Origin: an uncultured Bacilli bacterium | GTDB lineage: Bacteria; Bacillota_I; Bacilli_A; RF39; UBA660 | Length of the DNA: 37,835 nt | Assembly: GCA_944358455.1 (NCBI GenBank) | Contig: CALVRE010000027.1 | Span: 1 to 37,835, forward strand | Reading direction: 5' to 3' | The notes under the pieces: generated by a model | Database searches by the model: none | What the model was told of the DNA's origin: nothing | What the model saw: the letters and a program-made list of their open reading frames with translations, nothing else | Part shown: positions 2,744 through 21,646 of the stretch, piece after piece | How positions within the stretch are numbered: the stretch's first letter is position 1 | Layout: the number at the start of each line of letters is the position of its first letter | Program-made: the position numbers and the translations under genes

Positions 2744-4810
2744 TTACGCGATCAAAGGTTCTACCAATTCCGTTTGATACAAGATTAAAAGTTCATGAAG
2801 AGGTCTTGTCATAGATACATAAAGAAGTTTCATATCTGTTTCATTTTCCGAATCAAATACCTCTTTACTAGCATCAGCCAGTATCACTGCATCGAACTCT
2901 AAACCTTTCGATAAAGAACTCGTAATACTACAGATACCGCCATGATATTCTGCATCATCAATCGTAACATGAGAAATCGCAATATGATTTTTTAAATAGT
3001 CATATATATGCTTTGCATCCATTTCATTCTTAGAAATGATAGCGATTGTTTTATGCCCTTTTTCCTGATACAACAATATATGATTCAAAATATTTTCATA
3101 ACTTGCATCATTCTCATAACGAACGGGAAGTCCATGACGAATCACCGGTTCTGTTTCAAAGAGTCCTAAATAACGGTTTATTTTATTCGCTTCCATCATA
3201 ATTTCAATCGTCGTACGATAACTTTTCTTGAGTGTACAAGTCGTAGCATTCAATTCATTCTCAATCGAATCCCAGCTTCCAATACTACGATATGGATAAA
3301 TCGATTGCGCTAGATCGCCAAAGATACTAAATGTTGCATTTTTAAAGATCAGTCTGAGCGTAATAAAGATAAATTCTTTATAATCCTGTGCTTCATCGAT
3401 AACCACTTGTCTATAACGATCGAAATAATCCGATCCTTTTATTCGATGTTTCAAATACATAAGTGCATTCAAATCTTCCATCTTATAAATCCTTTTATGA
3501 ATTTGGTTCAACTCTTGATGCTCCAAAAATAAAATTGTCTCATCTTGCACATAGTCTTCTAGATGATTCAAAAATTTATAATAAATCGATGGTAATTTTT
3601 CATTCACCACTTTAAAATACTTTCGCAGCAAGTGGCATCCGGCACTTTCAATTTCTTTTACAAGCGCTTTCTTCTCTTGAATCAATTGTTTTTTTCTGGT
3701 TTCATCTGACTCATGAAAATAAATAGCATCGAGATACATTTTGGCATCAAAAATCAGTGCTTCTTTGCGCTCACGAATTTTCTTCATCGCTAATAAGATC
3801 GTATATTCAACTTGTTCTTTCCATGAACTGCCTCTTGATTCATGATCGAATAGATATTTGATTTCACTCCTTTTCAGAAGTGGAAAACCATGCATCATCA
3901 AATCACCGCTTGGAACAACTTCACATCTCAGATCATCTAAATAGCGATCGATCACATCTTTAAAATAGTGTGACATTTTGAAATTAGTCAAAAGATTATC
4001 TGGCATCTTCGATAGCTGAAATGTTTCTTTTAAATATTTGCTTGCTAACGTGACAAAGTCATACTCTTTTACTCCATAAACATCTAAATCCGGCAAGACA
4101 TCTGATATATAGTTTACAAAAAACTTATTTGGTCCTAAAATCATATATTGATCGGAACGGATTAGATGTTTATAGTTGTACTCTAAATAGGCGATACGAT
4201 GAAGTGCGACTGTCGTTTTACCAGAACCAGCAACTCCCTGAACAATTAAGTTCTTATAAAGACTTTCACGAATAATACTATTTTGTTCACTTTGAATCGT
4301 TGCAACAATATTCTTGAGTCTTGCATCATTACTTGCACTTAAATATGGTTTTAGAATTTCATCATTGGAAACCGTATCGACATCGTGGTAGGAAAGCAAC
4401 TTTGAATTTTCAATTTCATATTGTCTTTTCAGGATTAACTCACCAAACGTGGTTCCTTCGGGTGTTTGATAAGAGGCAGAACCAATATTACTATCATAAT
4501 AAAGTGAAGCAATCGGCGCTCGCCAATCGACTGTTACAATATCTTCCCTTTCGTTTGTAAGGCCAACTTTCCCAATGTAGCAAATATCTTTTTCGTGGTT
4601 TTTACTTTGAAAATCAATCCGTGCGAAATATGGTTTTAACAAGCTATTTTGATAAATGCGAATTCTATTTTTCAAAGTATTCTGATAATCGAGTTTTTCT
4701 TCCAAAGTCTCATAACTTCCTCTATCGGAATTGATGAGCATGGTTTTCACTACTTCGATCTTTTTTTCGTATTCTTTCAGTACTTCTTCTAATTTTTTTC
4801 TTTCTTCCAT
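2744..4810 (-). CDS. helD: HelD-type RNA polymerase-associated helicase (chromosomal copy)
   Basis: UvrD/Rep-like superfamily 1 ATPase of the HelD class, which binds RNA polymerase, inserts arms into its channels and recycles stalled or post-termination enzyme. The 688-residue product has an N-terminal coiled-coil arm (residues 1-60), the HelD hallmark DWRAPIASLYY (95-105), Walker A GVAGSGKT (192-199), Walker B IDEAQD (471-476) and C-terminal SF1 motifs (SKGLEFDAVILAD; LLYVSMTRP). ATG at 4810 follows AGAAGGAGG. It lies between miaB and cotE. A second, clearly related HelD sits in the mobile cassette at 16877-18952; this copy's base composition matches its neighbours and it looks like the housekeeping one. 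Confidence 0.9.
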   Translation of the reverse strand: MEERKKLEEVLKEYEKKIEVVKTMLINSDRGSYETLEEKLDYQNTLKNRIRIYQNSLLKPYFARIDFQSKNHEKDICYIGKVGLTNEREDIVTVDWRAPIASLYYDSNIGSASYQTPEGTTFGELILKRQYEIENSKLLSYHDVDTVSNDEILKPYLSASNDARLKNIVATIQSEQNSIIRESLYKNLIVQGVAGSGKTTVALHRIAYLEYNYKHLIRSDQYMILGPNKFFVNYISDVLPDLDVYGVKEYDFVTLASKYLKETFQLSKMPDNLLTNFKMSHYFKDVIDRYLDDLRCEVVPSGDLMMHGFPLLKRSEIKYLFDHESRGSSWKEQVEYTILLAMKKIRERKEALIFDAKMYLDAIYFHESDETRKKQLIQEKKALVKEIESAGCHLLRKYFKVVNEKLPSIYYKFLNHLEDYVQDETILFLEHQELNQIHKRIYKMEDLNALMYLKHRIKGSDYFDRYRQVVIDEAQDYKEFIFITLRLIFKNATFSIFGDLAQSIYPYRSIGSWDSIENELNATTCTLKKSYRTTIEIMMEANKINRYLGLFETEPVIRHGLPVRYENDASYENILNHILLYQEKGHKTIAIISKNEMDAKHIYDYLKNHIAISHVTIDDAEYHGGICSITSSLSKGLEFDAVILADASKEVFDSENETDMKLLYVSMTRPLHELLILYQTELVEPLIA

Positions 4811-5043: not shown

Positions 5044-6449
5044 CCATCCATACTCCATGTTTTCACATCGGTAATTTTGACATCGACAATCTTACCAATG
5101 TTGTCTTTTGATCCTTTCACATTCACTAATTTCATCGTATCGGTATATCCCATCAACTTATGTTCATCTTTTTCACTAATTCCCTCAATTAAAACTGGTA
5201 CTACCCGATTTAGATAAGCATCATTTGCTTTTTTTGCATATTCATTCACTAGTTGATTCAATTCTTGAAGACGACGTTCCTTTTCTTCGATAGGAGTATC
5301 ATCTTTCATACGACTAGCAGGGGTTCCTTCGCGAGGAGAAAAAATGAATGTAAAAGCAGAATCGTACTCGCAAGTACGAACGACATCTAATGTTTCTTTG
5401 AAATCTTCTTCAGTTTCTCCAGGAAAGCCTACGATAATATCAGTCGTAATACTACTATAAGGAAGAGCTTCTTTCAGTTTATGAAAGAGTTCTAAATAGG
5501 ATTCTTTAGTATATCTTCTTCCCATCAATTTTAAAATACGACTAGATCCTGATTGTAAAGGAAGATGAATATAAGGCATAATATTAGGGTATTTGGCAAT
5601 TATTTCGATCATATGATCAGTAAAATCCCATGGATGACTCGTCACAAAACGAACACGAGCGATTCCTGTCTTTGCAACATCCTCTAGTAGATTAGCCATG
5701 TTGTAATTCAGATTTAAGTCTTTTCCATAAGCATTGACATTCTGACCTAACAAGGTTACTTCCTGATACCCATCGGCCACTAAGTTTTCTACTTCTTGGA
5801 TGATAAATTCAGGATGACGACTTCTTTGTTTTCCTCTCGTATAAGGAACAATACAATAAGTACAGAACTTGTCACATCCATACATAATATTAACCCAAGC
5901 TTTATATTTGCTATCACGTTTTACCGGAATATTTTCGATAATTTCGCCTTCGATACTAGGTACTTCGACTTCGATACTGTGTTTATCGATCGCCTCTTTT
6001 AAAATGTTGGGCAAATTATAAATATTGTGAGTCCCAAAGACGATATCGATCCAGGCGTGTTTCTTCAAAATTTCGTCGACGACCACTTCTTCTTGGGCCA
6101 TACATCCACAAATACCAACCATGATATCGGGGCGTTCCTCTTTCATATGTTTCATTCTTCCAATCATACCAAATACTTTATTATGAGCATTTTCACGAAT
6201 CGCACAAGTATTGAGTAAGATTAAATCAGCTTCCTCCATCACACTTGCTTCTGTAAACGACATATCTTCTAAAATGGCTTTTATATTTTCCGTATCATGT
6301 TCGTTCATTTGACAGCCATAGGTTTTTACAAAATATGTTTTTCCTTTTCCTAATTCTTTTAAATTTTCTTTTACGATATATTCACTCGTTTTCACCAATA
6401 CTTCGGCACGTGTTCTTTTTTGTGCTTCTTTCAAATTTGGTTTTAGCAT
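5025..6449 (-). CDS. miaB: tRNA-2-methylthio-N6-isopentenyladenosine synthase MiaB
   Basis: Radical SAM methylthiotransferase that adds the methylthio group to i6A37 in tRNAs reading UNN codons. The 474-residue product has the N-terminal UPF0004 domain with its three cluster cysteines (C46 in TYGCQMNEHD, C82 in LLNTCAIREN, C116). The radical SAM CxxxCxxC follows at C192/C196/C199 (MYGCDKFCTYCIVPYTRG). A C-terminal TRAM domain ends the protein. Its ~30-residue N-terminal extension is typical of Firmicute MiaB. Transcribed from its own promoter (6474-6502). Its position upstream of cotE resembles the B. subtilis order. Confidence 0.97.
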   Translation of the reverse strand: MLKPNLKEAQKRTRAEVLVKTSEYIVKENLKELGKGKTYFVKTYGCQMNEHDTENIKAILEDMSFTEASVMEEADLILLNTCAIRENAHNKVFGMIGRMKHMKEERPDIMVGICGCMAQEEVVVDEILKKHAWIDIVFGTHNIYNLPNILKEAIDKHSIEVEVPSIEGEIIENIPVKRDSKYKAWVNIMYGCDKFCTYCIVPYTRGKQRSRHPEFIIQEVENLVADGYQEVTLLGQNVNAYGKDLNLNYNMANLLEDVAKTGIARVRFVTSHPWDFTDHMIEIIAKYPNIMPYIHLPLQSGSSRILKLMGRRYTKESYLELFHKLKEALPYSSITTDIIVGFPGETEEDFKETLDVVRTCEYDSAFTFIFSPREGTPASRMKDDTPIEEKERRLQELNQLVNEYAKKANDAYLNRVVPVLIEGISEKDEHKLMGYTDTMKLVNVKGSKDNIGKIVDVKITDVKTWSMDGEIMEK

Positions 6450-6473
6450 AGTACCACTTCCTCGACACGATTA

Positions 6474-6502
6474 ATAATATCATAAATTATCATTTTATAC
6501 AA
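6474..6502 (-). promoter_or_regulatory. Promoter of miaB
   Basis: TTGTAT (6497-6502), 17 nt, TATTAT (6474-6479) with a TGa extended -10 on the minus strand, directly behind the antiporter terminator. Confidence 0.6.
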
Positions 6503-6503
6503 G

Positions 6504-6527
6504 AAAAAAGAGCAATCAAGCTCTTTT
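6504..6527 (-). terminator. Intrinsic terminator of the antiporter operon
   Basis: Stem AAAGAGC/GCTCTTT followed by T6 on the minus strand; the antiporter stop TGA is in the loop. Confidence 0.88.
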
Positions 6528-7715
6528 GAACCATTTCTGTTTTTTCTCATTTCCAATCTCGTTTGCTCTTCTAAGACAAAATCGTACCAAAAAGGGACTT
6601 GCCATATCAAATAATACACTAGATGCAACAACGATCGCTTGTAGTTCTTGTCCATCTTTCGGAAGTGCTTCAGCAGCAACGAGAGCAAGTCCAATTGCAA
6701 TTCCTGTTTGGGAAAGTAAAGAAGGTCCCAAATATTTGGTAATCGTCCGATCACATTTCATAGTTTTTGCACCCATACTCGTACCGATTATTTTACCTAT
6801 CGTACGGGCGAAAATGAAGATGATTCCATAGAGACCAATTTCTGGTAACAAAGTAAAGTCTAAACTTGCGCCTGATAGGATGAAAAATAAAATAAACAAA
6901 GGTGGTGTCAAAATATCCGTTAGATGAATAATTTTATGGATCACTTTATTCGGTGTCGTATTGACAAAAGCAAATCCCATGATGATAGCTACTAGTAAAG
7001 AAGAAATATTCAAATATTCGCACACTCCCATCATAAGAAAGAGAAAGGCAATAATACAAATAGCCATCTCCATGTCAGATTTGATCAATCGTTCACATCG
7101 ACCTAAGAGTAAACCCAGAATAGAACCGATTAATAAAGATAAAATAATTTCACGGAATGGTTCTATCCAAACAAAAAGGTCCGATGTTAGATGTGTTTCA
7201 TTTTGAGCGAACGCGAACGCAAAGCCAAAGAGGAGAATCGATACGACATCACCGATGGCAATAACCGACAACATCATATCCGTAAGTGGTCCTCTCGCTT
7301 TATACTCTTTTATGATCATCATGATAGCAGGTGGTGCGGTCGAAGATGCGATCGCACCTAAGATGAGAGCCAATGAAAAGTTCGCATTCACAAGAACAAG
7401 CAATCCTGTCACGATAAAAAAAGTAAAAAACGAACTAATCAGAGTAATGACAAGAGGTTTTATCCCCATCTTTTTGATAAATTTTAATTTGAACTCCGAA
7501 CCAACAGAAAACGAAATAAACGCTAACGCCATCGAAACGAACGTTTCTAATTCTAGTAAAATAGATGAATTAATCCAATTTAAAAAAGATGGACCGATTA
7601 AAATACCAGCAATTAAATATCCGATAATCGCAGGAAGATGAAGCCTTTTCGCAATCTCGTTACACAATATTCCAGCAAATAAGATGATAGATATGGAATA
7701 TAATAGATGCGTCAT
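6516..7715 (-). CDS. CPA2-family cation/proton antiporter, membrane domain only
   Basis: Integral membrane protein of the Kef/GerN/NapA-like monovalent cation:proton antiporter family, exchanging Na+ or K+ for H+. The 399 residues are almost entirely hydrophobic, with about 12-13 predicted spans. The N-terminal family motif RLHLPAIIGYLIAGILIGPS, the FSVGSEF segment, the STAPPA unwound-helix motif and an ion-site helix reading IAIGDVVSILLF are present. That helix has a single Asp where CPA2 members usually have Asp-Asp, so stoichiometry may differ. No C-terminal RCK/TrkA-N domain is fused. The start overlaps the stop of the 108-residue gene by 4 nt (ATGA), suggesting the small protein supplies regulation. 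Confidence 0.88.
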   Translation of the reverse strand: MTHLLYSISIILFAGILCNEIAKRLHLPAIIGYLIAGILIGPSFLNWINSSILLELETFVSMALAFISFSVGSEFKLKFIKKMGIKPLVITLISSFFTFFIVTGLLVLVNANFSLALILGAIASSTAPPAIMMIIKEYKARGPLTDMMLSVIAIGDVVSILLFGFAFAFAQNETHLTSDLFVWIEPFREIILSLLIGSILGLLLGRCERLIKSDMEMAICIIAFLFLMMGVCEYLNISSLLVAIIMGFAFVNTTPNKVIHKIIHLTDILTPPLFILFFILSGASLDFTLLPEIGLYGIIFIFARTIGKIIGTSMGAKTMKCDRTITKYLGPSLLSQTGIAIGLALVAAEALPKDGQELQAIVVASSVLFDMASPFLVRFCLRRANEIGNEKKQKWFKRA

Positions 7716-8038
7716 GATAATGTTCCCTCCACATCACGAAGAGGAATAATATAAGAAAAATAAGCACGAACAGGAACTAATTCCTTTGTGATCTTTTGAG
7801 CCTCTTTTACTTCTTCCTCCGTTCCAACGATTTCAATTTGATAACTATCATCATCGACATAATCCATCATATAACGTAAACTAGAAAAAATAGGGGCCGC
7901 TTTTTTATGACGTTTCTTCTCTTTTCTTAAGCTAACACTTTCGATAACCGTAATATTTGTAATGTTTTTTTCGCGAAATTGATGCATTAATTCGGCATAC
8001 AACTCTTCTTCTCTTAAAACGATCACACATAAATTCAT
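7712..8038 (-). CDS. Small ferredoxin-like (P-II-like?) protein coupled to the antiporter
   Basis: A 108-residue soluble protein with no recognisable catalytic motif. Alternating strands and helices (MNLCVIVLREEELYAELMHQF, NITNITVIES, then SYQIEIVGTEEEVKEAQKITKELV) suggest a P-II/CutA-like ferredoxin fold with a basic loop in the middle (RKEKKRHKKAA). It is first in a two-gene operon and overlaps the antiporter start by 4 nt, so a regulatory or sensory role for the antiporter is a reasonable inference. ATG at 8038 follows AGGAGAG. The fold assignment is tentative. Confidence 0.55.
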   Translation of the reverse strand: MNLCVIVLREEELYAELMHQFREKNITNITVIESVSLRKEKKRHKKAAPIFSSLRYMMDYVDDDSYQIEIVGTEEEVKEAQKITKELVPVRAYFSYIIPLRDVEGTLS

Positions 8039-8058
8039 ACACTCACTCTCCTATTTTC

Positions 8059-8087
8059 ATTATATCTTCGTAAACAAAAGAATGCAA
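8059..8087 (-). promoter_or_regulatory. Promoter of the small protein-antiporter operon
   Basis: TTGCAT (8082-8087), 17 nt, TATAAT (8059-8064) on the minus strand. The -35 lies within the 3' arm of the upstream RNase J gene's terminator. Confidence 0.7.
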
Positions 8088-8106
8088 GAATTATACTTCT
8101 TGCATT
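8076..8106 (-). terminator. Intrinsic terminator of the RNase J-like gene
   Basis: Ten-bp stem AATGCAAGAA/TTCTTGCATT followed by TCTTTT on the minus strand. The stop codon of the RNase J gene is in the loop and the next promoter overlaps the stem. Confidence 0.85.
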
Positions 8107-9737
8107 ACTACTAAAATCATCGGTTTACATTCTGTCTGTTGATATAAATATTTCCCTAAACGATCACGAATTCCATTTTTAATTTTATTGAATTCGACAT
8201 AGTTTGGTTTAATATTTTCGTTGATTACTTCGAGGGCGATTTTCTCCGATTCCTTAATCAGATCGATATTGTCTTTGACGTAGATAAATCCACGAGTTAA
8301 GATTTCTGGACCGGCCAACACTTTTTTTGTCGCGTGATCTAATGTCGCACTCACGATTAAAATCCCATTATCACTGAGTAGTTCACGATCTTTTAACACA
8401 AGTGTTCCAACATCTTCAGAAGTTTTTCCATCGATTAAGATATCGTCGGCTTTGACATGTTCTTCTTGTTCGGTTAAAACGCCATTTTCAAAAATGGCTA
8501 CTTGTCCATTTAATTTAATCAAGATATTCTCTTCTTTGAATCCTACTTGCATAGCTGCTTTGGCATTCTCTACTTGATGACGATATTCACCACATACTGG
8601 AAAATAATACTTTGGATTCATGAGTGCTAACATCATCATCAAATCTTCACGAGAAGCATGATGATCCAAATATTTCTTCGTTGGAAGAGTGATCAGTTCA
8701 CAACCAATACGCGCAATCGCATCAAAAATCTTAGTCGAACTTTTTTCCATTCCATCGTATACTGGAGATACGAAAATAACTGTATCACTTTCCGTTAGTT
8801 TAATGAACTTGTCATATCCCTTCACGATTCGTTCCATATTCGAAAATGGTTTTTCACGTTCATTCGAAACAAATACAATAATACCTTCATCATTGACATG
8901 ATGAATGCTCACAATACGACTTTTATCAAAATACATATAATGCATATCGATTGCTTTCATAATCGTCTTTTCTAAACGTTTCCCCATGATGACAACTTTA
9001 CGATCCGTTTTCATGATCGCATTGAATAATTCTTGCATGCGGAAGATTTGTGTAGAAAAAACATTGCACAAAATACGACCTTCATGCTTACTGATAGCCT
9101 CACTTACAACCGAATAAATACGGTGGTTTGGCGATGTAAAACCACTTTTCTCTGCATAGAGTGATTCACTAAGTAAACATAATACACCTTGTTTTCCAAC
9201 ATAAGCGAGTTTCCCTATATCGGTTTTATAAGCATCGATCATCGTTGGATCAAAAATAAAGTTCCCCGTATAAAATATAGCTCCATCCGGTGTATATAAC
9301 ACATATCCTACTGCATCTGGAATCGCATGTGTGAGAGCGATTGGAAAAATACTATTCTTTCCGAACGTAATCTTACGATGTGGTTTTAGTTCAATCAAAT
9401 GATCGGCACTCAACCCTTCATCATTTAATTCATTACGTAAAAGTTCTAATGTAAAAGGCGTACCATAAATATTAACATCTGGTAAATCAGCAATCATATC
9501 AGGAATCGCACCCATTTGTTCATCATGTCCGTGGGTAATAAAAATTCCTTTAATGCGATCCTTATTTTCTTTTAAATAATCGTAGTTTGGAATAATATAA
9601 TCAATTCCAAGCATATTATCATCCGCATACTTTAAACCCGCATCAAAAATAAACAAATCACGATCTACATCAACGACATATAAGTTTTTCCCGTTTTCAT
9701 TTAGTCCGCCCAAACTAAATATTTTAATTTTACTCAT
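8091..9737 (-). CDS. RNase J-family protein with degenerate active site (RNase J2-like)
   Basis: Metallo-beta-lactamase/beta-CASP protein of the RNase J family, which forms J1/J2 complexes in mRNA turnover. The ATG at 9737 (AAAGGAG site) gives 548 residues colinear with RNase J, from SLGGLNENGKN through LKDRELLSDNGILIV to PMILVVMQEV. Several metal ligands of active RNase J1 appear replaced. The HxHxDH motif reads HGHDEQ (H69, H71, E73, Q74), TGDF reads TGNF (N159), the SGH segment reads DHH, and PVHGEYR reads PVCGEYR (C382). Only about three ligands remain, so it is probably a non-catalytic or weak partner like RNase J2. A catalytic J1 would be expected elsewhere. Own promoter at 9778-9806. 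Confidence 0.88.
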   Translation of the reverse strand: MSKIKIFSLGGLNENGKNLYVVDVDRDLFIFDAGLKYADDNMLGIDYIIPNYDYLKENKDRIKGIFITHGHDEQMGAIPDMIADLPDVNIYGTPFTLELLRNELNDEGLSADHLIELKPHRKITFGKNSIFPIALTHAIPDAVGYVLYTPDGAIFYTGNFIFDPTMIDAYKTDIGKLAYVGKQGVLCLLSESLYAEKSGFTSPNHRIYSVVSEAISKHEGRILCNVFSTQIFRMQELFNAIMKTDRKVVIMGKRLEKTIMKAIDMHYMYFDKSRIVSIHHVNDEGIIVFVSNEREKPFSNMERIVKGYDKFIKLTESDTVIFVSPVYDGMEKSSTKIFDAIARIGCELITLPTKKYLDHHASREDLMMMLALMNPKYYFPVCGEYRHQVENAKAAMQVGFKEENILIKLNGQVAIFENGVLTEQEEHVKADDILIDGKTSEDVGTLVLKDRELLSDNGILIVSATLDHATKKVLAGPEILTRGFIYVKDNIDLIKESEKIALEVINENIKPNYVEFNKIKNGIRDRLGKYLYQQTECKPMILVVMQEV

Positions 9738-10029: not shown

Positions 10030-10644
10030 TTAACTTTCATAAGAACAAGTTCTAGAACGAACGTATTTGACACAACCGCCATCTTTTTCTTCGTATTTGA
10101 CAGTATCACTCTCGTATAGATTTCCTTCTGGTGAAATGAGGCAATAAGAAGTATCATCTTCTCGCCATTCACCATATGTACAATTGGCTTGCACGTTATT
10201 TCGAGCTTTTACTTTAATCGGAACATACAAGAATCTTCCAATTACACCACCAATTAAAAGTACACTTAAACCCCATATCATAACATTAAGACGACGATTC
10301 GATTTAGAATTTTCTTCCTTCGGAATGGCAATTTCGATCACTTGCTTTTTATTCGTTGTATGATCGATTTGGTCTTTGAATTTAATCTTAATTGCTTTCG
10401 TAGTAGAACGATCTTTCACATTTGGTTTTGAAGCCGTTTTTTTAGGTTGTAAAGAAGTCGTTTTCACTTTCGATGCAGTCATTTTTTCTTTTGTAACAAC
10501 GGTTTTATTCGGACTCGTTTTTTTCACGACTTTTGGCTCATTTTTTTTCTTAGGAGTCGACTTTTTGGCAGAAGTAGAATTCTTCTTTTGAGGGCCAACT
10601 GGTCGACGTTTCAAATTTTTAATATCATTTTTTTTGTTAGCCAT
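10030..10644 (-). CDS. Single-pass membrane protein with Lys/Thr-rich cytoplasmic domain
   Basis: No family recognised. ATG at 10644 with a GGAGGGA site gives 204 residues; the longer frame from 10755 runs through the promoter and is not credible. The first ~135 residues are disordered and very basic (Lys, Thr, Ser, Pro). One transmembrane helix follows (NVMIWGLSVLLIGGVIGRF). The ~45-residue external domain holds four cysteines, likely two disulfides (NCTYGEWR, SYCLIS, GGCVKY, RTCSYES). The positive-inside rule puts the basic region in the cytoplasm, where it could bind nucleic acid or acidic protein. Monocistronic, with its own promoter and terminator. Confidence 0.75.
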   Translation of the reverse strand: MANKKNDIKNLKRRPVGPQKKNSTSAKKSTPKKKNEPKVVKKTSPNKTVVTKEKMTASKVKTTSLQPKKTASKPNVKDRSTTKAIKIKFKDQIDHTTNKKQVIEIAIPKEENSKSNRRLNVMIWGLSVLLIGGVIGRFLYVPIKVKARNNVQANCTYGEWREDDTSYCLISPEGNLYESDTVKYEEKDGGCVKYVRSRTCSYES

Positions 10645-10681
10645 CGAAAGTCCCTCCTCCCTCTTTTTTTCATGCGCTTTT

Positions 10682-10709
10682 ATATTATCACAAATCTCAA
10701 ATTTGTCAA
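10682..10709 (-). promoter_or_regulatory. Promoter of the 204-residue membrane protein gene
   Basis: TTGACA (10704-10709), 16 nt, TAATAT (10682-10687) on the minus strand. Confidence 0.6.
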
Positions 10710-10744
10710 TCATTCTCTTCCTATATGATATGAATTTGACACTC

Positions 10745-10767
10745 AAAAAAGACATCCGAAGATGTCT
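10745..10767 (-). terminator. Intrinsic terminator of the MBOAT-DHHW operon
   Basis: Stem AGACATC/GATGTCT with a TTCG tetraloop followed by T6 on the minus strand. Confidence 0.92.
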
Positions 10768-11890
10768 AACCGATCGTTAAAATACCAAGATCTTGATCGA
10801 TGGTATTCATATTATAGAGAATAAGCAAATCTCGAATATTCGTATTTTCTCGCAAATAATCTTCAATACTAAATTTATAAAATCTAGGGTCAATCACATG
10901 AACCTTTTCGTAATGATTCACTAAGAAAGGAATCATACTATTCGCATAACTATCTTTGATGATAAGAAGTTCTTTTCCATTGTGAATATCTTGATTCGTA
11001 ATCGTAATAAGAGGATGATTATTATCTAAGAAATAAGAATACTTATCTTTTTGATCTAAATATTTTTCTTCATATAAGGTATCGGTTATACGGTTACTAA
11101 AGACATAATTGACTTCATAATTATGATTCTTAGGAATAAAGATATGGATCTTATCTGGTGTCAACGTATAAAGATTCGTCTTCGAATAAAGTGTTCCATT
11201 AAAATTATCCGTTACCTCTTGAATATCAAATTCGGTAATCGCAAGTGGCGTAATATTATTAGATTTACAAAATTCTAGATAAGCATAATAAGCTCCATAA
11301 CTAGTCCAGTGATGATCCAAACGATAGAACATTTGATACTCTTGGTTCCCATTTCGTAAAGCTTCTGTCACATCGATCGTATCAAACTTAATCTTCGAAT
11401 AAATCGCATTCATTTCCTCTACTTGAGAATAAGTAGGTGCGTAACTTGGAAGTTTCTCTTCGTTAATCGTAATACTAGTTGGTACTAACATCAAATTCAT
11501 ATTGATATAATTCATATCTCCGTAAAATTGATTTAATACATCGACAATTTTATTTCCATTTTCCGGTTTTTGATAATTTTGAATTAAATATTCATCACTA
11601 CCAATATAAACATCATCGATCATTTCTTTTCCTATTGTAAGTTCTGTTTTCGTTTTTACACTCATAAAGAAGTCTCGAAATGGAAAGTGATCAGCAAGAT
11701 AATTTTCGATACCTTCCGTCAATTTTCCACTTTGTAAATTAAAAAAAGAAAGATGCGGAAAACTGGCTAGATAACGATTTTCATTTTCAGAAAACTCGAT
11801 TTTACGAGAAAAGAGGAAAATAACCGAAAAAGTCAGAATAAAAAGAGAAAAGACAATCCCAAATAATTTTTCATATTTTATATTTTTCAT
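10766..11890 (-). CDS. DHHW-family / AlgJ-AlgX-like cell-surface acetylation protein
   Basis: Extracytoplasmic SGNH-like enzyme of the type that works with an MBOAT protein to acetylate a surface polysaccharide or wall polymer. The 374 residues comprise an N-terminal signal anchor (about residues 8-28), the ENRYLASFP segment common to this family, a DHHW motif (YRLDHHWTSYGAYYAY) and a Ser-containing block LLIIKDSYANSM where the SGNH nucleophile is expected. It begins 8 nt after the MBOAT stop, so the two are co-translated. The substrate polymer cannot be read from the sequence. Confidence 0.83.
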   Translation of the reverse strand: MKNIKYEKLFGIVFSLFILTFSVIFLFSRKIEFSENENRYLASFPHLSFFNLQSGKLTEGIENYLADHFPFRDFFMSVKTKTELTIGKEMIDDVYIGSDEYLIQNYQKPENGNKIVDVLNQFYGDMNYINMNLMLVPTSITINEEKLPSYAPTYSQVEEMNAIYSKIKFDTIDVTEALRNGNQEYQMFYRLDHHWTSYGAYYAYLEFCKSNNITPLAITEFDIQEVTDNFNGTLYSKTNLYTLTPDKIHIFIPKNHNYEVNYVFSNRITDTLYEEKYLDQKDKYSYFLDNNHPLITITNQDIHNGKELLIIKDSYANSMIPFLVNHYEKVHVIDPRFYKFSIEDYLRENTNIRDLLILYNMNTIDQDLGILTIG

Positions 11891-15660: not shown

Positions 15661-15682
15661 AAAAAATGCGAGGAATTCGCAT
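15661..15682 (-). terminator. Displaced greA terminator, now ending the cassette operon
   Basis: Stem ATGCGA/TCGCAT followed by T6 on the minus strand, identical to the terminator at 21561-21582. It lies 107 nt beyond the stop of the HAD gene, the last gene of the cassette operon. Confidence 0.85.
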
Positions 15683-15746
15683 TCTATCATTTTATTCCAA
15701 TATCAAAATTAAGCAATACCTACAATTGCAACCTTATATTTACCAT
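15661..15746. repeat. Left 86-bp direct repeat: displaced greA 3' end and terminator
   Basis: Matches 21561-21646 in 85 of 86 positions (difference at 15707/21607) and in the same orientation; the two copies start exactly 5900 bp apart. On the minus strand it encodes the last GreA residues GKYKVAIVGIA, the stop codon and the hairpin terminator, with no greA upstream of it. It looks like the attL- or attR-type remnant left when the cassette inserted at the 3' end of greA. Confidence 0.92.
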
Positions 15747-15788
15747 ACTTTTATTACTTGCATTACTTCTTTTAAAGATATATCTTAT

Positions 15789-16349
15789 TTAAATATTTTT
15801 TTCACTATCTAACCACTGATCTATTTTCTCATATAGATTAGTATCTTTATCAACCTTTATAGTGTTGATTCCTAGTTTTTTTGCACTTTCAATATTTTCT
15901 ATATTATCATCCAAAAACAATAATTCTTCCGGTAATATTTTAAATTTATCTAATATATATTTATAAAAATCAGCATTTGGTTTCACTTTATGAATTTCCG
16001 ATGAAATTAATATATCTTCTAAATATTCTATTTCCAAAGTTTCTCCTATGAAGTTTCTTACAAAAGAAACATGATTAGTAGCAATGATAATTTTTAAATG
16101 ACTATTCTTTTCTTTGATTTTTTTAAACAAATCTACATCTTTTACTTGATATAATTTGTCAATCAAATTCTCTATTGTTCTCATTAATATCGAATCTTTA
16201 TTTATGATTTTTCTGGCTTCCAAAAGGTAATCAGAATCATTAATATTTTTACCAAACATTCTTTCCAGCTTATCTTCTTCTGGGGTCAATTCAATATCTT
16301 TTTCATTCACTAAAACGCCTACTAAGTCAAATGCAATTAACTTAATCAC
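15789..16349 (-). CDS. HAD-superfamily hydrolase of the cassette
   Basis: Haloacid dehalogenase-like hydrolase, usually a small-molecule phosphatase. The 186 residues include motif I FDLVGVL (nucleophile D8; the usual second Asp is Val10, as in dehalogenase/epoxide hydrolase-like HADs), motif II ATN (T91), motif III KVKPNADFY (K121/K123) and motif IV FLDDN (D147, D148). The start is a GTG at 16349 with a GGAGGAT site, overlapping the peptidase stop by 8 nt. It is the last gene of the operon. A role in peptide tailoring, for example removing a phosphate or acting on a phosphorylated intermediate, is possible but not shown. Confidence 0.85.
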   Translation of the reverse strand: MIKLIAFDLVGVLVNEKDIELTPEEDKLERMFGKNINDSDYLLEARKIINKDSILMRTIENLIDKLYQVKDVDLFKKIKEKNSHLKIIIATNHVSFVRNFIGETLEIEYLEDILISSEIHKVKPNADFYKYILDKFKILPEELLFLDDNIENIESAKKLGINTIKVDKDTNLYEKIDQWLDSEKNI

Positions 16350-16872
16350 TTCTATCCTCCTTTACTAAAATTCGCCAAGCGCCATAATCTTCGCAATATT
16401 TAATAACATTTTTTGTATTTTCGATTCTATACTCATATTTGTCTTTAATAGGATTAATAATCCTTACTTTACCATGATACATTCCATTTAAAATTATAAA
16501 ATGACCTCCACTCATCTTTTTATTATTAAATCTTGAAGATTGCACACATAATACAATAAACTTATTTTCCTTGAGTTCTCTTATCAATTCTTCTTCGCTT
16601 AATTTTATTTCTTTTATGTTAATTTTGTTACTTAAACATTTTTCTATGTAGAAAAATCCCTTATAATTTAAATTTCTCTCTTTATTATGATTATAATCAA
16701 AAAACAAATTACTTTTATAGCATAAAATTTCTACATTTTGAATGCCATTTTCTTTCAGAGATAAGGCTAATTCTGTAATCCAAATCATTTTATTATTAAT
16801 TTTTTTGATGTTTAATTTAAAATCGTTTAAGATATACAGAACACAAGAGCCACCACACAAAAGATTATTCAT
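16342..16872 (-). CDS. C39/papain-like cysteine peptidase of the cassette
   Basis: Probable leader peptidase. The 176 residues start MNNLLCGGSCVLYIL, resembling the C-G-x-x-C-x-x-x-L block around the catalytic Cys of C39 peptidases and of the related guanylyl-cyclase-like family. H124 lies in SGGHFIILNG and N140 in IINPI, matching the His and Asp/Asn of the triad. Unlike bacteriocin-exporter C39 domains it is free-standing, with no ABC transporter, and the usual oxyanion-hole Gln four to six residues before the Cys is absent because the protein starts there. It begins 4 nt after the HelD stop. Assignment rests on motif spacing and context. Confidence 0.6.
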   Translation of the reverse strand: MNNLLCGGSCVLYILNDFKLNIKKINNKMIWITELALSLKENGIQNVEILCYKSNLFFDYNHNKERNLNYKGFFYIEKCLSNKINIKEIKLSEEELIRELKENKFIVLCVQSSRFNNKKMSGGHFIILNGMYHGKVRIINPIKDKYEYRIENTKNVIKYCEDYGAWRILVKEDRSD

Positions 16873-16876
16873 ATTG

Positions 16877-18952
16877 TTATTTTTTACTTTCCAAAACCAA
16901 TTGTTTTTGATTATATACGGTTAAACTATGTTGTGCTCGCGTGCAAACTACATAAAATAAATATTTATCTTTCTCTTGATATGGATATCCTTTATCTGTA
17001 TAGACAATGACGCCATCAAACTCTAATCCTTTAGAAATATAAGAAGGCAATATTACAACATTTCCAATAGTTTTTTCACCAGTCTCGCTTAACATATTGA
17101 CATCTGCTAATACTTTCTTTAATCTTTCATATAAATCAATTGTTTCATCATTATTTTTAGTTATGATCGCAATTCGTTTCATACCGTTAATCCTCATTTG
17201 ATTTATATCACCAATTAAATATTCAGGAACTTGTTCATAAGTAGCATTTTTTATAACTACAGGAATGTTATTACTTTTTCTCACAGAACAAACATTATTA
17301 ATTCCCAATATTTGGTTTGTATAATTTATAATTTCTTCACTAGAACGATATGTTTTAGTTAATTCAATATATCTTCCTTTCGATTCAAATATAGAGTTAA
17401 TTTCATTTAAATTGTTATATATATAATAAGGATTTATAGTTTGATTAACGTCACCTAAAATTGTAAAAGATGCTTTGTCAAAAATCCTTCTCAACATTTC
17501 GAGTTGTAATAAAGAATAGTCCTGTGCCTCATCTATAATTACATGCTTAATATAATTTCCATTTGGATAACCATTTAATTCAAAATTTAGATACATAAGT
17601 GGAATTAAATCTTCATATTTTAATAATCCTTCTATTTTGAATATTTCATTTTGTTTAAGTCTCGCACTAGTTTTAAAGATATCAGAATTTACAATACTTG
17701 AGTAAATGTCCTTAACATTTAAATTATAGTTTAATAATTCGCATAATCGTTTTTTTAAAGTTTTACCATATTTTTTATATGATATATGATTTTTGTCACA
17801 TATATATTCAGCAATAGCATCTATTCTACTAAAAAGTGGTAATCTTGAAAAACTACTAATCAATAATTGATTCAATTCTTTTTTAGTAAATTTTTTTTCA
17901 TTAATTATTATTCCTTTATCAAATCTCATTTCTGTTTTTAATTGACTAACACAATTGTCTAATAGTTCCTTAAATTGATTAGATAATTTATATTTTGTAC
18001 TTTTGAACTTTTCTTCATCTATATATTCACTTTTATAATATCTTTCAATAAAACTCGCAAAACTCTCTATTTTTTTGAAACCCTTCATATATGAACTAGC
18101 AAAATCATTATATGTTGTTTGCAAAACATTGTCTTCTCCTAATTCCGGCAAGACATTTGAAATATACTCAGAAAAAATTTCATTCGGCGAAAAAATCAGA
18201 ACATTATTTGAGGTAAGATTATTTTCTTTATAAAGTAAGTACGCAATTCTATGCAAAGCTACAGACGTTTTTCCACTTCCAGCAATTCCTTGAACAATTA
18301 GATATTTGTCTTTGGTATTTCTAATAACTTCATTTTGCTCTTTTTGTATTGTGTTAACAATGTTTGTCATTTTTTCTGACGACGAGCTAGATAAAATTTC
18401 CTGCAAGAACTCATCATCTATATTGATGTTGTTGTCAAAACATCTTTCAATTGTTTCACCCTTTATCTTATATTGTCTTTTTAAAGTAACATTACCCGTT
18501 ATATTCCCTACTGGAGCTTCATAAGAAGCAGGACCAACTCCATAATTATAGAATAGACTTGCAATAGGTGATCTCCAATCAAAAACATAAAAATTTAAAT
18601 CTTTCATTATTCCATTTATACCAATATATATAGATTCTGAAAGTCCATCTTCCTCAAAATCTACTCTACCAAAATATGGACTAATTAAAGATCGTTTTAA
18701 CTTTTGTAATTGCTTAATGTTGTCATTAGTATGTTCTACTTCAGTATTTATATCATACATTCCCATCGATATTTCTACTTCATCTAAAAGTGCGTTATTT
18801 TCCCAAATATACCTTTTCATCTCGTTGACCGAATTAATTTTATCTTGTATAGATGCATTGTCCTTTTCAATAATACTTTTAATTACTTCTAACGTTTTCT
18901 TTAAATATCTTTTTTCTATTTCTAATTGTTCCGATGTAATATTCACTTTCAT
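16877..18952 (-). CDS. Second HelD-type helicase, inside the RiPP-like cassette
   Basis: A 691-residue SF1 ATPase with the HelD architecture: N-terminal coiled coil (1-90), DWRSPIASLFYN (125-136), Walker A GIAGSGKT (222-229), DEAQD near residue 480 and the C-terminal SKGLEFDGVIVYTD and VVCTRAQ motifs. It is clearly homologous to, but quite divergent from, the chromosomal HelD at 2744-4810, and has a more AT-rich, Asn/Lys/Ile-rich composition. HelD proteins bind RNA polymerase, and actinobacterial relatives (HelR) protect it from rifamycins. Its place between the maturase and the peptidase in one operon suggests a role in self-protection or action on RNA polymerase. Its start overlaps the previous stop (ATGA). 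Confidence 0.9.
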   Translation of the reverse strand: MKVNITSEQLEIEKRYLKKTLEVIKSIIEKDNASIQDKINSVNEMKRYIWENNALLDEVEISMGMYDINTEVEHTNDNIKQLQKLKRSLISPYFGRVDFEEDGLSESIYIGINGIMKDLNFYVFDWRSPIASLFYNYGVGPASYEAPVGNITGNVTLKRQYKIKGETIERCFDNNINIDDEFLQEILSSSSSEKMTNIVNTIQKEQNEVIRNTKDKYLIVQGIAGSGKTSVALHRIAYLLYKENNLTSNNVLIFSPNEIFSEYISNVLPELGEDNVLQTTYNDFASSYMKGFKKIESFASFIERYYKSEYIDEEKFKSTKYKLSNQFKELLDNCVSQLKTEMRFDKGIIINEKKFTKKELNQLLISSFSRLPLFSRIDAIAEYICDKNHISYKKYGKTLKKRLCELLNYNLNVKDIYSSIVNSDIFKTSARLKQNEIFKIEGLLKYEDLIPLMYLNFELNGYPNGNYIKHVIIDEAQDYSLLQLEMLRRIFDKASFTILGDVNQTINPYYIYNNLNEINSIFESKGRYIELTKTYRSSEEIINYTNQILGINNVCSVRKSNNIPVVIKNATYEQVPEYLIGDINQMRINGMKRIAIITKNNDETIDLYERLKKVLADVNMLSETGEKTIGNVVILPSYISKGLEFDGVIVYTDKGYPYQEKDKYLFYVVCTRAQHSLTVYNQKQLVLESKK

Positions 18953-19581
18953 AGTCCCTTCTTTTTTTGATATTTTTTAAATTGCATTCTATCAAAACTC
19001 TCATAAAATGTTCCAAAAGAATTCTCAGGATGTACAGAAGCAAGAAAACTTAAATCGCCTTGTAATTGACTAATATTGTATTCTGAAATAGGAAATTCAA
19101 TTTCATCCATAACGATTATTTTATTATTAAGGATTCCACTTTTTTCCATTAAGATTAATGATAATACTATTTGTTGTGATAAATTATTGTATAAATTCCT
19201 ATAATAACGATATAAAGACACATCATTAGTCTTTTCAAAGACATGATGACCTTTTTCTAAAAAATATGACAAATCAAAACAAATTATTTTATTTTTATTC
19301 TTTATAATATCACAAAAGGGAAAATAATTCATAAAGTACTTAACATAATCATCCATAGATATATTTCCTAAAACCACTTGAGTCTCATCTCTCATATCTA
19401 TGACAACAGAATTACTATATTTATTTACCACTTTTTTTAATAATGACTTACTCTCATGATCTGTCGCAGAGTCCAACACAATTATTTCTTTTCCTTCTGA
19501 AATCAATCTCTGCAATTCATTGAACAAATATGTAGTTTTTCCAGTTTCTTGACTTTCAACTATTAATTGATTGTTTTTCAT
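18949..19581 (-). CDS. Small P-loop ATPase-like protein of the cassette
   Basis: A 210-residue protein with a P-loop-like start (LIVESQETGKTTYLF; S10, G14, K15, T16), lacking the first Gly of a standard Walker A, and a Walker B-like hydrophobic strand ending in Asp-Glu (KIIVMDEIE). It resembles the nucleotide-binding core of HerA/FtsK or ABC-type ATPases but I cannot name a family. The ATG at 19581 (AGGAGG, 6-nt spacing) is preferred over upstream TTG codons. It overlaps the maturase gene by 26 nt and the HelD start by 4 nt, so the products are probably made in fixed ratio. Confidence 0.65.
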   Translation of the reverse strand: MKNNQLIVESQETGKTTYLFNELQRLISEGKEIIVLDSATDHESKSLLKKVVNKYSNSVVIDMRDETQVVLGNISMDDYVKYFMNYFPFCDIIKNKNKIICFDLSYFLEKGHHVFEKTNDVSLYRYYRNLYNNLSQQIVLSLILMEKSGILNNKIIVMDEIEFPISEYNISQLQGDLSFLASVHPENSFGTFYESFDRMQFKKYQKKKGL

Positions 19582-21157
19582 CAACAACCTCCTTGTTTAA
19601 TACATTTTCTTGAATCCAAGCTTGCATTAAATACAAGAATATTTGTCTTCTATCCATACAGTGAGGATCTTCTCTATAAATATTTTCAAACTTACCAAAA
19701 GCAGAGTAACAACAAGAGCAACACATTCCTCTAAATATACAATTACTACACTTCTTGATTGTTTTGGCAGTTCGATTTCTTAATTCAATTATTTCTTCTT
19801 TTTTCAGCATATCTTCAATTTTTTCATTCAATACATTTCCCATGATAAATCTTTTCTCACCTTTAAAACCATCACACGGAAATACATCTCCATTTGGGTT
19901 AACAGATACTAATTCTCTTGCTGCTCCACAAGGATATCTCAAACAAATATAATCCCTAATCGGAGTATAGACATTTTCCTCAAATATATGAATAGAAAAG
20001 TTTTCAACATCAATCTCATCTTTCATCTGATGCATTGTTTTAAAACATCTTGCCCATTCTCCAGGTTTTGTAGTTAAATTATTCTCTTTTTCTCTTCCTA
20101 AAATATTTACTGGTCTCGGTTTGAAATTCATTCCAATCTTATCAAAATATTTCATTAGCTGTTTAGGGTAACGAACATTATGTTGTCCTACTGTACACAC
20201 TGCACCATCTATATAAATACCATTATCTCTTAATTTTTTTATACCCTTTTCAATCTTGTCAAACACACCGTTTCCATTAATATCAACTCTTGTTTGATCT
20301 GTCATCTTCTTTGGGCCATCCAAACTTACACCGACACTTACATTAAATTCCTTGATTAAACTTATTAAGTCCTCTGTCACTGAAACGCAATTGATTTCTG
20401 TTCTATATTTTACTAGCTTATTATAATTTGGTTTTACTGCTTCTACTTTTTCAATAAATTTTCTCATGCCAGATACGTTCGTTGATGCCTCTCCACCTTG
20501 AAATTCAAATGTAATCACTTTTACTTGTGGCATTGACAACATACTATCTATAGTGGCATCCATTACTTCCTCAGTCATATTCTCCCCCTTAAATGGGCCA
20601 CAATCTGCAAAACAATATTTACACCTTAAATTACAACCAGTCGTAATATTAACAACTATCACACTAGGATAATTTGCAGGGAGAGGAAAATCAAATTCAA
20701 CTTCTGCACATTCCTTTTCCTCTGCTAATCCTCTAACAAACAGACTTAGCCATTCATCTTGTGTTAATATTTCTTTTTCATATTTTCTATATTCTTCTTC
20801 TTCAAATGCCATCCATGATCCTAATTCCGGATTAATCAAAATTTTAAAAATCCTATTTCCTACTTTCAAGGGGAAACTTTCTACTTTTTTAGATTTTGTG
20901 AACCTTTTTTTGCTAAGATCAAAAGGATTGTCTATTACTAGATTCTTACAATTTTTATCTAAAGCTAATCCTTTGAAGAATAATCTTTCCCATTCAATCT
21001 CATTAAATAAATCATTTTTATATTTATTGTACTCTTCTTTGCTTAATGTCAGTTTTATGTTAGTATTTTTATTTTTTAATTCATAATTTCCATTAATCTC
21101 TTTAATTATAACATCATTTGATTTCTCGTATTCACGACTCAACCAAGGACTTCTCAT
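19556..21157 (-). CDS. Radical SAM/SPASM peptide maturase
   Basis: Likely modifies the 44-residue peptide encoded just upstream. The 533 residues hold the radical SAM cluster motif CNLRCKYC (C175, C179, C182), the GGE motif (residues 221-223) and a C-terminal SPASM domain. That domain has many cysteines for auxiliary [4Fe-4S] clusters: C410, C428 in NPNGDVFPCDGF, and C470, C473, C479, C480, C482, C483, C500. Enzymes of this architecture make thioether, C-C or C-O crosslinks in ribosomal peptides. The ~165-residue N-terminal region contains an ungapped internal duplication (residues 42-78 and 122-158). ATG at 21157 has a GGAGG site. No family-specific assignment is possible by eye. Confidence 0.9.
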   Translation of the reverse strand: MRSPWLSREYEKSNDVIIKEINGNYELKNKNTNIKLTLSKEEYNKYKNDLFNEIEWERLFFKGLALDKNCKNLVIDNPFDLSKKRFTKSKKVESFPLKVGNRIFKILINPELGSWMAFEEEEYRKYEKEILTQDEWLSLFVRGLAEEKECAEVEFDFPLPANYPSVIVVNITTGCNLRCKYCFADCGPFKGENMTEEVMDATIDSMLSMPQVKVITFEFQGGEASTNVSGMRKFIEKVEAVKPNYNKLVKYRTEINCVSVTEDLISLIKEFNVSVGVSLDGPKKMTDQTRVDINGNGVFDKIEKGIKKLRDNGIYIDGAVCTVGQHNVRYPKQLMKYFDKIGMNFKPRPVNILGREKENNLTTKPGEWARCFKTMHQMKDEIDVENFSIHIFEENVYTPIRDYICLRYPCGAARELVSVNPNGDVFPCDGFKGEKRFIMGNVLNEKIEDMLKKEEIIELRNRTAKTIKKCSNCIFRGMCCSCCYSAFGKFENIYREDPHCMDRRQIFLYLMQAWIQENVLNKEVVDEKQSINS

Positions 21158-21178
21158 AACTTACCTCCACTAAAAATT

Positions 21179-21399
21179 ACACAACATAGGAGATATTTCA
21201 AAACTTATTTATGAGTATGGGTTCCGCAACCGTCGTAACCTAATCCGATTTTGTTTCCAAATGAAATTTTAATTTTCTTATCTGAAAATTTTAACTTCAA
21301 ATTTTTCACAATATCATTTTTTATTGTCATTTTTTTCAAGAAGGTCACCTCCTCTACTTTTTTAATTTTTTATGTAATACATAGACTCCTATGTTGCGT
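21179..21399. repeat. 14-bp inverted repeats bracketing the precursor gene
   Basis: Plus-strand ACACAACATAGGAG (21179-21192) and CTCCTATGTTGCGT (21386-21399) are complementary over 14 positions, one as G-U in RNA. They lie on either side of the precursor ORF. The upstream copy also begins a short palindrome CATAG-GAGT-CTATG. Confidence 0.7.
21205..21339 (-). CDS. Precursor peptide of the radical SAM system (44 residues)
   Basis: A small ORF directly upstream of the maturase, too short for ordinary gene calling. A TTG start at 21339 lies 8 nt behind a perfect AGGAGGTGA ribosome site; the internal ATG at 21330 is 17 nt away and less likely. The N-terminal ~30 residues are Lys/Ile/Asn-rich (MKKMTIKNDIVKN, then KFSDKKIKIS), as in leader peptides. 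The C-terminus GLGYDGCGTHTHK is rich in Gly with single Tyr, Asp and Cys and two His, a plausible modified core. Leader cleavage could fall after IGLG, but that is a guess. The peptide resembles no precursor family I can name with confidence. Confidence 0.8.
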   Translation of the reverse strand: MKKMTIKNDIVKNLKLKFSDKKIKISFGNKIGLGYDGCGTHTHK

Positions 21400-21401
21400 A
21401 T

Positions 21402-21473
21402 AAAAAGATGACAAAAACATATGCTTGCCATCTTCAAATTTACTGCAATATAATTGATTGGGCAAACATACCC
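21402..21473 (-). promoter_or_regulatory. Attenuator-like leader upstream of the precursor gene
   Basis: In the ~140-nt leader an intrinsic terminator (stem 21407-21414 with 21425-21432, then T5) lies before the precursor. An upstream segment at 21461-21470 (TATGTTTGCC on the minus strand) is complementary over 10 positions, one G-U, to 21420-21429. That would break the terminator's 5' arm, giving mutually exclusive structures. No known riboswitch class is recognised. Confidence 0.6.
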
Positions 21474-21487
21474 TCTGATTTTCATAT

Positions 21488-21517
21488 ATTATATATACTT
21501 TTTTTCTAAAATGTCAA
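21488..21517 (-). promoter_or_regulatory. Promoter of the cassette operon
   Basis: TTGACA (21512-21517), 18 nt, TATAAT (21488-21493) on the minus strand, both hexamers perfect. It lies inside the cassette, about 150 nt before the precursor start. Confidence 0.75.
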
Positions 21518-21560
21518 TAGCTTAACAATATTTTATTACTATCACTCATTCATATAAACG

Positions 21561-21582
21561 AAAAAATGCGAGGAATTCGCAT
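21561..21582 (-). terminator. Intrinsic terminator of greA
   Basis: Stem ATGCGA/TCGCAT, loop GGAAT-type, followed by T6 on the minus strand. Confidence 0.85.
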
Positions 21583-21646
21583 TCTATCATTTTATTCCAA
21601 TATCAAGATTAAGCAATACCTACAATTGCAACCTTATATTTACCAT
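21561..21646. repeat. Right 86-bp direct repeat: functional greA 3' end
   Basis: The second copy of the repeat described at 15661-15746. Here it is continuous with the intact greA coding sequence, so integration kept greA whole. Confidence 0.92.

Follow-up and report, generated by a model that had tools for sequence, protein, structure and literature searches.

What would an operon make that sets a short, almost invariant peptide beside a radical S-adenosylmethionine (SAM) enzyme, a P-loop ATPase and an RNA polymerase factor of the HelD family, and on what might its product act? This question was raised by a 37,835-nt stretch of DNA from an uncultured Bacilli bacterium (contig CALVRE010000027.1; hereafter the window, meaning the whole stretch), in which the original prediction, made without database searches, had placed a new family of modified peptide between positions 15747 and 21560. 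Our analysis indicated that, judged from its genes, this operon is a new family within the radical SAM ribosomally synthesised and post-translationally modified peptides (RiPPs), with an uncommon set of partners, and that its 44-residue peptide is very probably a precursor paired with the radical SAM maturase. The prediction was supported in part: a conserved precursor-like open reading frame (ORF) lies beside every homologous maturase and no named maturase family fits, while modification of the peptide is predicted from the gene content. Four features had gone unremarked in the original prediction: the mobile insertion, an optional methylase gene, an RNA element and the resistance-type arm of HelD.

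The short peptide and its maturase

ORF calling returned six ORFs, all on the minus strand and running from 21339 to 15789, with four junctions overlapping or abutting and a gap of 47 nt between the peptide and maturase genes, which confirmed the predicted set of six tightly packed genes led by the peptide. The ribosome site described in front of the peptide gene was also present (AGGAGG). The TTG at 21339 (44 aa) aligns with the ATG of relatives; the ORF caller extends the frame to a GTG at 21348 (47 aa). The GC content of the cassette is 27%, compared with 34% in the surrounding DNA.

Searches with the maturase and with peptide and P-loop profiles found cassettes in 12 genomes of uncultured Bacilli, the window included, and all carriers with an assigned genome entry belong to one family. 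Sampling of 386 genomes of that family gave 8 with the peptide, from 8 genera; the peptide profile recovered only the window's own genome from those sampled across the class and phylum, and the peptide was absent from viral, phage and plasmid collections as far as the sensitivity of the searches goes. Wherever contig extent permits, the full set of six genes is retained, so that the recurrence of gene order that the original prediction had proposed to look for was largely borne out. The exceptions are genome G188, where the HAD gene lies upstream of the peptide, and genome G208, where additional DNA separates the C39-like gene from the HAD gene. At locus L027 these two genes are separated by ~600 bp of additional DNA (7700-8294) that has no match in Pfam. 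The encoded proteins diverge in step, with distance correlations of 0.65-0.92 among the five enzymes and 0.51-0.79 between the peptide and the others.

Of all the cassette's parts, the peptide is the best conserved. Its C-terminal half is almost invariant in the 12 genomes, and its last ~20 residues, IKISFG(N/K/E)KIGLGYDGCGTHTH, hardly vary (IKI becomes VSI in G927), while the C39-like proteins of the cassettes differ at half their positions. For the whole peptide, the proportions of nonsynonymous (pN) and synonymous (pS) differences were 0.059 and 0.598, and for the core 0.026 and 0.658. The silent sites of the gene are thus near saturation, and the conservation of the peptide despite this indicates a real, selected gene. 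The tail is longer after THTH in G188 and ends in THTHKD in G239, from which the C-terminal end may be removable or tolerant of change. There is a single cysteine (Cys37), and a C-x2-H-x-H cluster occupies the C-terminus. A conserved precursor-like ORF adjoins every homologous maturase and the C-terminal motif GYDGCGTHTH recurs; the searched libraries and literature name no such precursor, in keeping with the earlier remark that the core GYDGCGTHTHK belonged to no nameable class, and the literature searches made turned up neither this core nor a RiPP operon with HelD.

The enzyme encoded after the peptide had been called a radical SAM/SPASM protein, and both domains (PF04055 and PF13186) matched above the Pfam cut-offs. 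Its CX3CX2C motif (C175/C179/C182) and SPASM cysteines (C410-C500) are invariant in the alignment. Across the whole catalytic part, the best NCBIfam match was HxsB (TIGR03978, 158 bits against a cut-off of 370), followed by PapB (NF047865, 149 against 340), DynA and others, none near its cut-off; SCIFF (TIGR03974) scored 115 bits against 425, and sulfatase- and QhpD-type maturases were also among the matches. Known maturase families were therefore rejected as its identity, since none scored above the NCBIfam cut-off. The operon has neither the HxS-repeat protein nor the HxsC-type partner enzyme of the HxsB system.

The closest solved structure by sequence was CteB (PDB 5WGG). The full structure model was poor beyond the N-terminal 150 residues (mean predicted local distance difference test score (pLDDT) 55), and only the N-terminal part was used. 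The prediction for this part was of good confidence and comprises a pair of similar beta-beta-beta-alpha-alpha units (approximately residues 10-75 and 86-150), which are repeats of each other (hhalign 98%, E 7e-14); the N-terminal domains of CteB and TigE align from the second unit onward, and neither unit had a Pfam match. From the predicted fold and position, we read the two units as putative tandem RiPP recognition elements (RREs). The maturase resembles the PapB and CteB enzymes of ranthipeptides and SCIFF peptides in combining radical SAM and SPASM domains and, putatively, in an N-terminal RRE, although those enzymes have one RRE and this one has two RRE-like domains; ranthipeptide precursors are also rich in cysteine and SCIFF precursors have six, whereas the peptide described here has one.

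HelD and the accessory proteins

HelD is encoded in every complete cassette locus. The cassette protein passes the class I HelD model (NF041464, 510 bits against a cut-off of 419) and has the DWR motif, and the tip of its secondary-channel arm is acidic, with LDEVE in the window and LDDxE in most relatives, the pattern LD(D/E)xE being kept. Its clamp arm is shorter by ~57 residues than that of the Bacillus subtilis structure (6WVK), and shorter than that of the host's own HelD. That chromosomal copy is the mirror image of the cassette protein: its secondary-channel arm is ~30 residues short, and its clamp arm is complete. The RNA polymerase of B. subtilis is shielded from rifampicin by the long arm of HelD and the acidic tip of that arm (D56/D57/E60; PMC12802891). 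More than one HelD is found in many bacteria (PMC8655204). The cassette HelD thus shares the DWR motif, long arm and acidic tip of the B. subtilis class I protein, and differs from it in its shortened clamp arm and its location in a peptide-maturation operon.

The cassette HelDs group together in the tree as a separate clade (support 99/99), sister to stand-alone long-arm HelDs of other members of the family. Such stand-alone copies lie in housekeeping surroundings at L109 (7746-9779), L110 (6400-8436) and L111 (7179-9185). G075 and G927 carry a second, stand-alone long-arm HelD, which led us to abandon the proposal that host genomes never have a long-arm HelD of their own.

The P-loop protein matched no Pfam family above cut-off. 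Its model (pLDDT 79, from 9 sequences) resembles VirB4/HerA-type ATPases, with the corrinoid adenosyltransferase CobA scoring about equally (Z ~10-11), and by this predicted fold it is an ATPase of the broad HerA/VirB4-like type and not a transporter. Full-length copies were found by profile search only in genomes that also hold the peptide and maturase. HelD and the P-loop protein had been suggested to stand in for a transporter; this was not supported, because neither such an ATPase fold nor an RNA polymerase factor exports peptides. In the predicted free-standing cysteine peptidase, Cys6 and His124 are invariant, but the third catalytic residue varies and the match to PF03412 (18.7 bits) lies below the cut-off of 22, so that the C39 label is weak.

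A CobJ/CbiH-like TP_methylase (175 bits against a cut-off of 246) occurs as an optional seventh gene. Of the 10 loci that could be judged, a count that leaves out L041 and L025, 5 carry it, and it directly follows the HAD gene in all of these except L037; it is absent from the window and from L024, L038, L039 and L042. CbiC is absent from three of the TP_methylase hosts, as well as from three other cassette carriers, so that this enzyme has probably been recruited to the peptide. Borosin-type peptide N-methyltransferases have the same TP_methylase fold; the orphan enzyme encoded as an extra gene in these five loci is, however, free-standing, nearest to CobJ/CbiH and not fused to a precursor.

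What the product may act on

The explanation that we favour, put forward tentatively and at rather less than an even chance as a complete account, has four steps. In the first, which is strongly supported, the peptide would serve as substrate for the radical SAM/SPASM enzyme; its conserved leader IKNDIVKNLK is probably bound by the tandem RRE-like domains, which would thereby present the C-terminal FGNKIGLGYDGCGTHTH core; the change made to the core, which would sit on the GLGYDGCGTHTH segment, is most likely a cross-link using Cys37. Second, cytosolic trimming or additional modification of the product could plausibly be the task of the C39-like protein and the HAD hydrolase, joined by the CobJ/CbiH-like methylase in the loci that have it. 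Third, the target of the product may be RNA polymerase, in the neighbourhood of its secondary channel or active site, and the long arm of the cassette HelD would protect or clear the producer's polymerase, as B. subtilis HelD does against rifampicin, with the P-loop ATPase assisting HelD or handling the peptide. Fourth, an RNA stem around the peptide ORF might tune the expression of the precursor relative to the enzymes.

The third step, with RNA polymerase as the target and HelD as self-protection, is possible but doubtful, and is proposed by analogy because the cassette HelD keeps the arm that is protective in B. subtilis. Its fullest form, a new RiPP family that hits RNA polymerase via the secondary channel, with dedicated HelD self-immunity (target protection) and spread as an integrase-less insertion beside terminators, we consider unlikely. 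Several observations weigh against the four-step explanation. There is no conserved exporter, which is odd for an antibiotic, and the peptide core hardly varies; peptides used in warfare usually diversify. As HelD is widespread as an RNA polymerase factor, and stand-alone long-arm copies occur in housekeeping surroundings within the family, finding it here does not by itself prove immunity. The C39-like protein also lacks a conserved third catalytic residue. If the RNA polymerase account is true, a peptide operon that always carries a HelD of its own lineage would point to ribosomal peptides aimed at RNA polymerase, with a target that could be tested from sequence. For enzyme chemistry, the near-invariant core and the doubled RRE-like domains of the maturase are of use as well.

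The principal competing explanation, somewhat unlikely in our estimation, is that maturation turns the peptide into a molecule used within the producing cell, either a cofactor-like compound comparable to PQQ or mycofactocin or one that binds metal through a Cys-His-His site; HelD and the P-loop ATPase would then take part in the cell's transcriptional response to this molecule. The near-invariant core under strong purifying selection, the C-x2-H-x-H cluster and the cytosolic accessory enzymes are all consistent with this, as is the lack of an exporter or transporter in any cassette examined, which also leaves room for the action inside the cell that the original prediction had envisaged. The patchy spread in the family and the mobile insertion described below would, however, be unusual for a cofactor, and the cassette has no conserved client enzyme.

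A defence or abortive-infection unit, in which modified peptide and HelD act on phage transcription, would also explain a small, patchy, mobile cassette without an exporter, and there is weak similarity of HelD to GajB helicases and of the maturase to viperins. We regard this as quite improbable, as the PADLOC matches are at superfamily level only, the cassette has no nuclease or other effector and no close relative of it was found among viral, phage or plasmid records. Still less probable is that the short ORF encodes a small protein in which residues are altered in situ, giving a subunit with a built-in cofactor. Radical SAM enzymes convert residues in place for quinohemoprotein amine dehydrogenase, SPASM enzymes also mature proteins, and maturases of the sulfatase and QhpD types were among the matches, but the operon has no partner enzyme, and the RRE-like domains and accessory C39-like protein point to a peptide. 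The short length and non-ATG start of the small ORF in the window might suggest that it arose by chance within a leader region, but its conservation in 12 genomes with near-saturated silent sites refutes this.

Insertion site and RNA elements

The operon is a horizontally moved, inserted unit. A 5.9-kb insertion follows greA and is bracketed by an 86-bp direct repeat with copies 99% identical, containing the last greA codons and the terminator; the borders given in the original prediction are the exact inner edges of this repeat. In G001, the sole other sampled genome of the window's genus, the site is empty: greA adjoins the trigger-factor gene, one repeat copy is present, and the two stretches that BLAST aligns with the window have exactly 86 bp in common. 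Two further loci are bracketed at other sites, L039 by 40 bp (identical) and L024 by 97 bp (94% identical). By eye, each of the three repeats contains a terminator-like hairpin; the three sites are unrelated and the repeats differ in sequence and length. The sizeable ORFs between the window repeats, all accounted for, include no recombinase or integrase, and no integrase is conserved across loci. The insertion resembles chromosomal integrative elements at gene 3' ends in its long direct repeat restoring the gene end and its clean empty site in a close relative, but differs from them in having no integrase and in repeats that vary among sites.

A 13-bp inverted repeat encloses the peptide ORF, with TACACAACATAGG before and CCTATGTTGTGTA after it, and recurs with few changes in 10 of 10 loci whose two arms are legible; in the one exception, the G022 contig, the 5' arm is missing near the contig end. 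Folding closed this long-range stem with a predicted probability of 1.00 in every locus (z -3.9 for the window). Covariation was weak (one compensatory pair, with 121 of 500 shuffles as good) and too little for proof, so that support for the stem comes from conservation and folding. Upstream, the leader RNA of the window folds at z -2.4, is recognisable in 8 of 10 inspected loci and is possibly an attenuator. Neither leader nor intergenic RNA matched an Rfam family at gathering score, and an upstream 43-aa ORF (21354-21485) showed no conservation among loci.

Coordinates of the operon, its flanking and regulatory features, and related features at other loci.
Feature	Position	Strand	Remarks
Precursor-like peptide, 44 aa from TTG, MKKMTIKNDIVKNLKLKFSDKKIKISFGNKIGLGYDGCGTHTHK	21205..21339	-	12 genomes; C-terminal half nearly invariant, strong purifying selection
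Radical SAM/SPASM maturase, 533 aa	19556..21157	-	CX3CX2C, SPASM cysteines, two tandem RRE-like N-terminal domains
Small P-loop ATPase, 209 aa, predicted HerA/FtsK/VirB4-like fold	18949..19578	-	Full-length copies only in this operon
HelD, 691 aa	16877..18952	-	Long secondary-channel arm, acidic tip, DWR motif, shortened clamp arm
C39-like (papain-fold) cytosolic protein, 176 aa	16342..16872	-	C6 and H124 invariant
HAD-IA family hydrolase, phosphatase-like, 186 aa	15789..16349	-	Family matches
Promoter-like TTGACA-18-TATAAT	21488..21517	-	Sigma-70-type, 12/12 consensus positions
Leader RNA, GGG-CCC hairpin and terminator-like hairpin	21400..21473	-	Recognisable in 8/10 loci
Inverted repeat 5' arm, TACGCAACATAGG	21388..21400	-	Upstream of peptide ORF
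Inverted repeat 3' arm, CCTATGTTGTGTA	21178..21190	-	Between peptide and maturase genes
Direct repeat, distal copy, 86 bp, att-like	15661..15746	.	greA 3' end and terminator
Direct repeat, proximal copy, 86 bp	21561..21646	.	Overlaps greA last codons and terminator
Host chromosomal HelD, outside cassette	2744..4810	-	Short secondary-channel arm, full clamp arm
Direct repeats elsewhere	L039 4265-4304 and 10825-10864; L024 3221-3317 and 13946-14042
TP_methylase loci	L028 13331-14050; L037 4154-4915; L043 3845-4567; L076 5509-6234; L077 5604-6320

Two loci showed further features at their flanks. At L024, a 450-aa protein without a Pfam match and IstA/IstB-like genes (3356-4708, 5063-7077) lie between the repeat and the cassette. 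At L037, the cassette is rearranged and is flanked by paralogous endonuclease/exonuclease/phosphatase-fold genes (3288-4082 and 10641-11423), which form a 73%-identical direct repeat.

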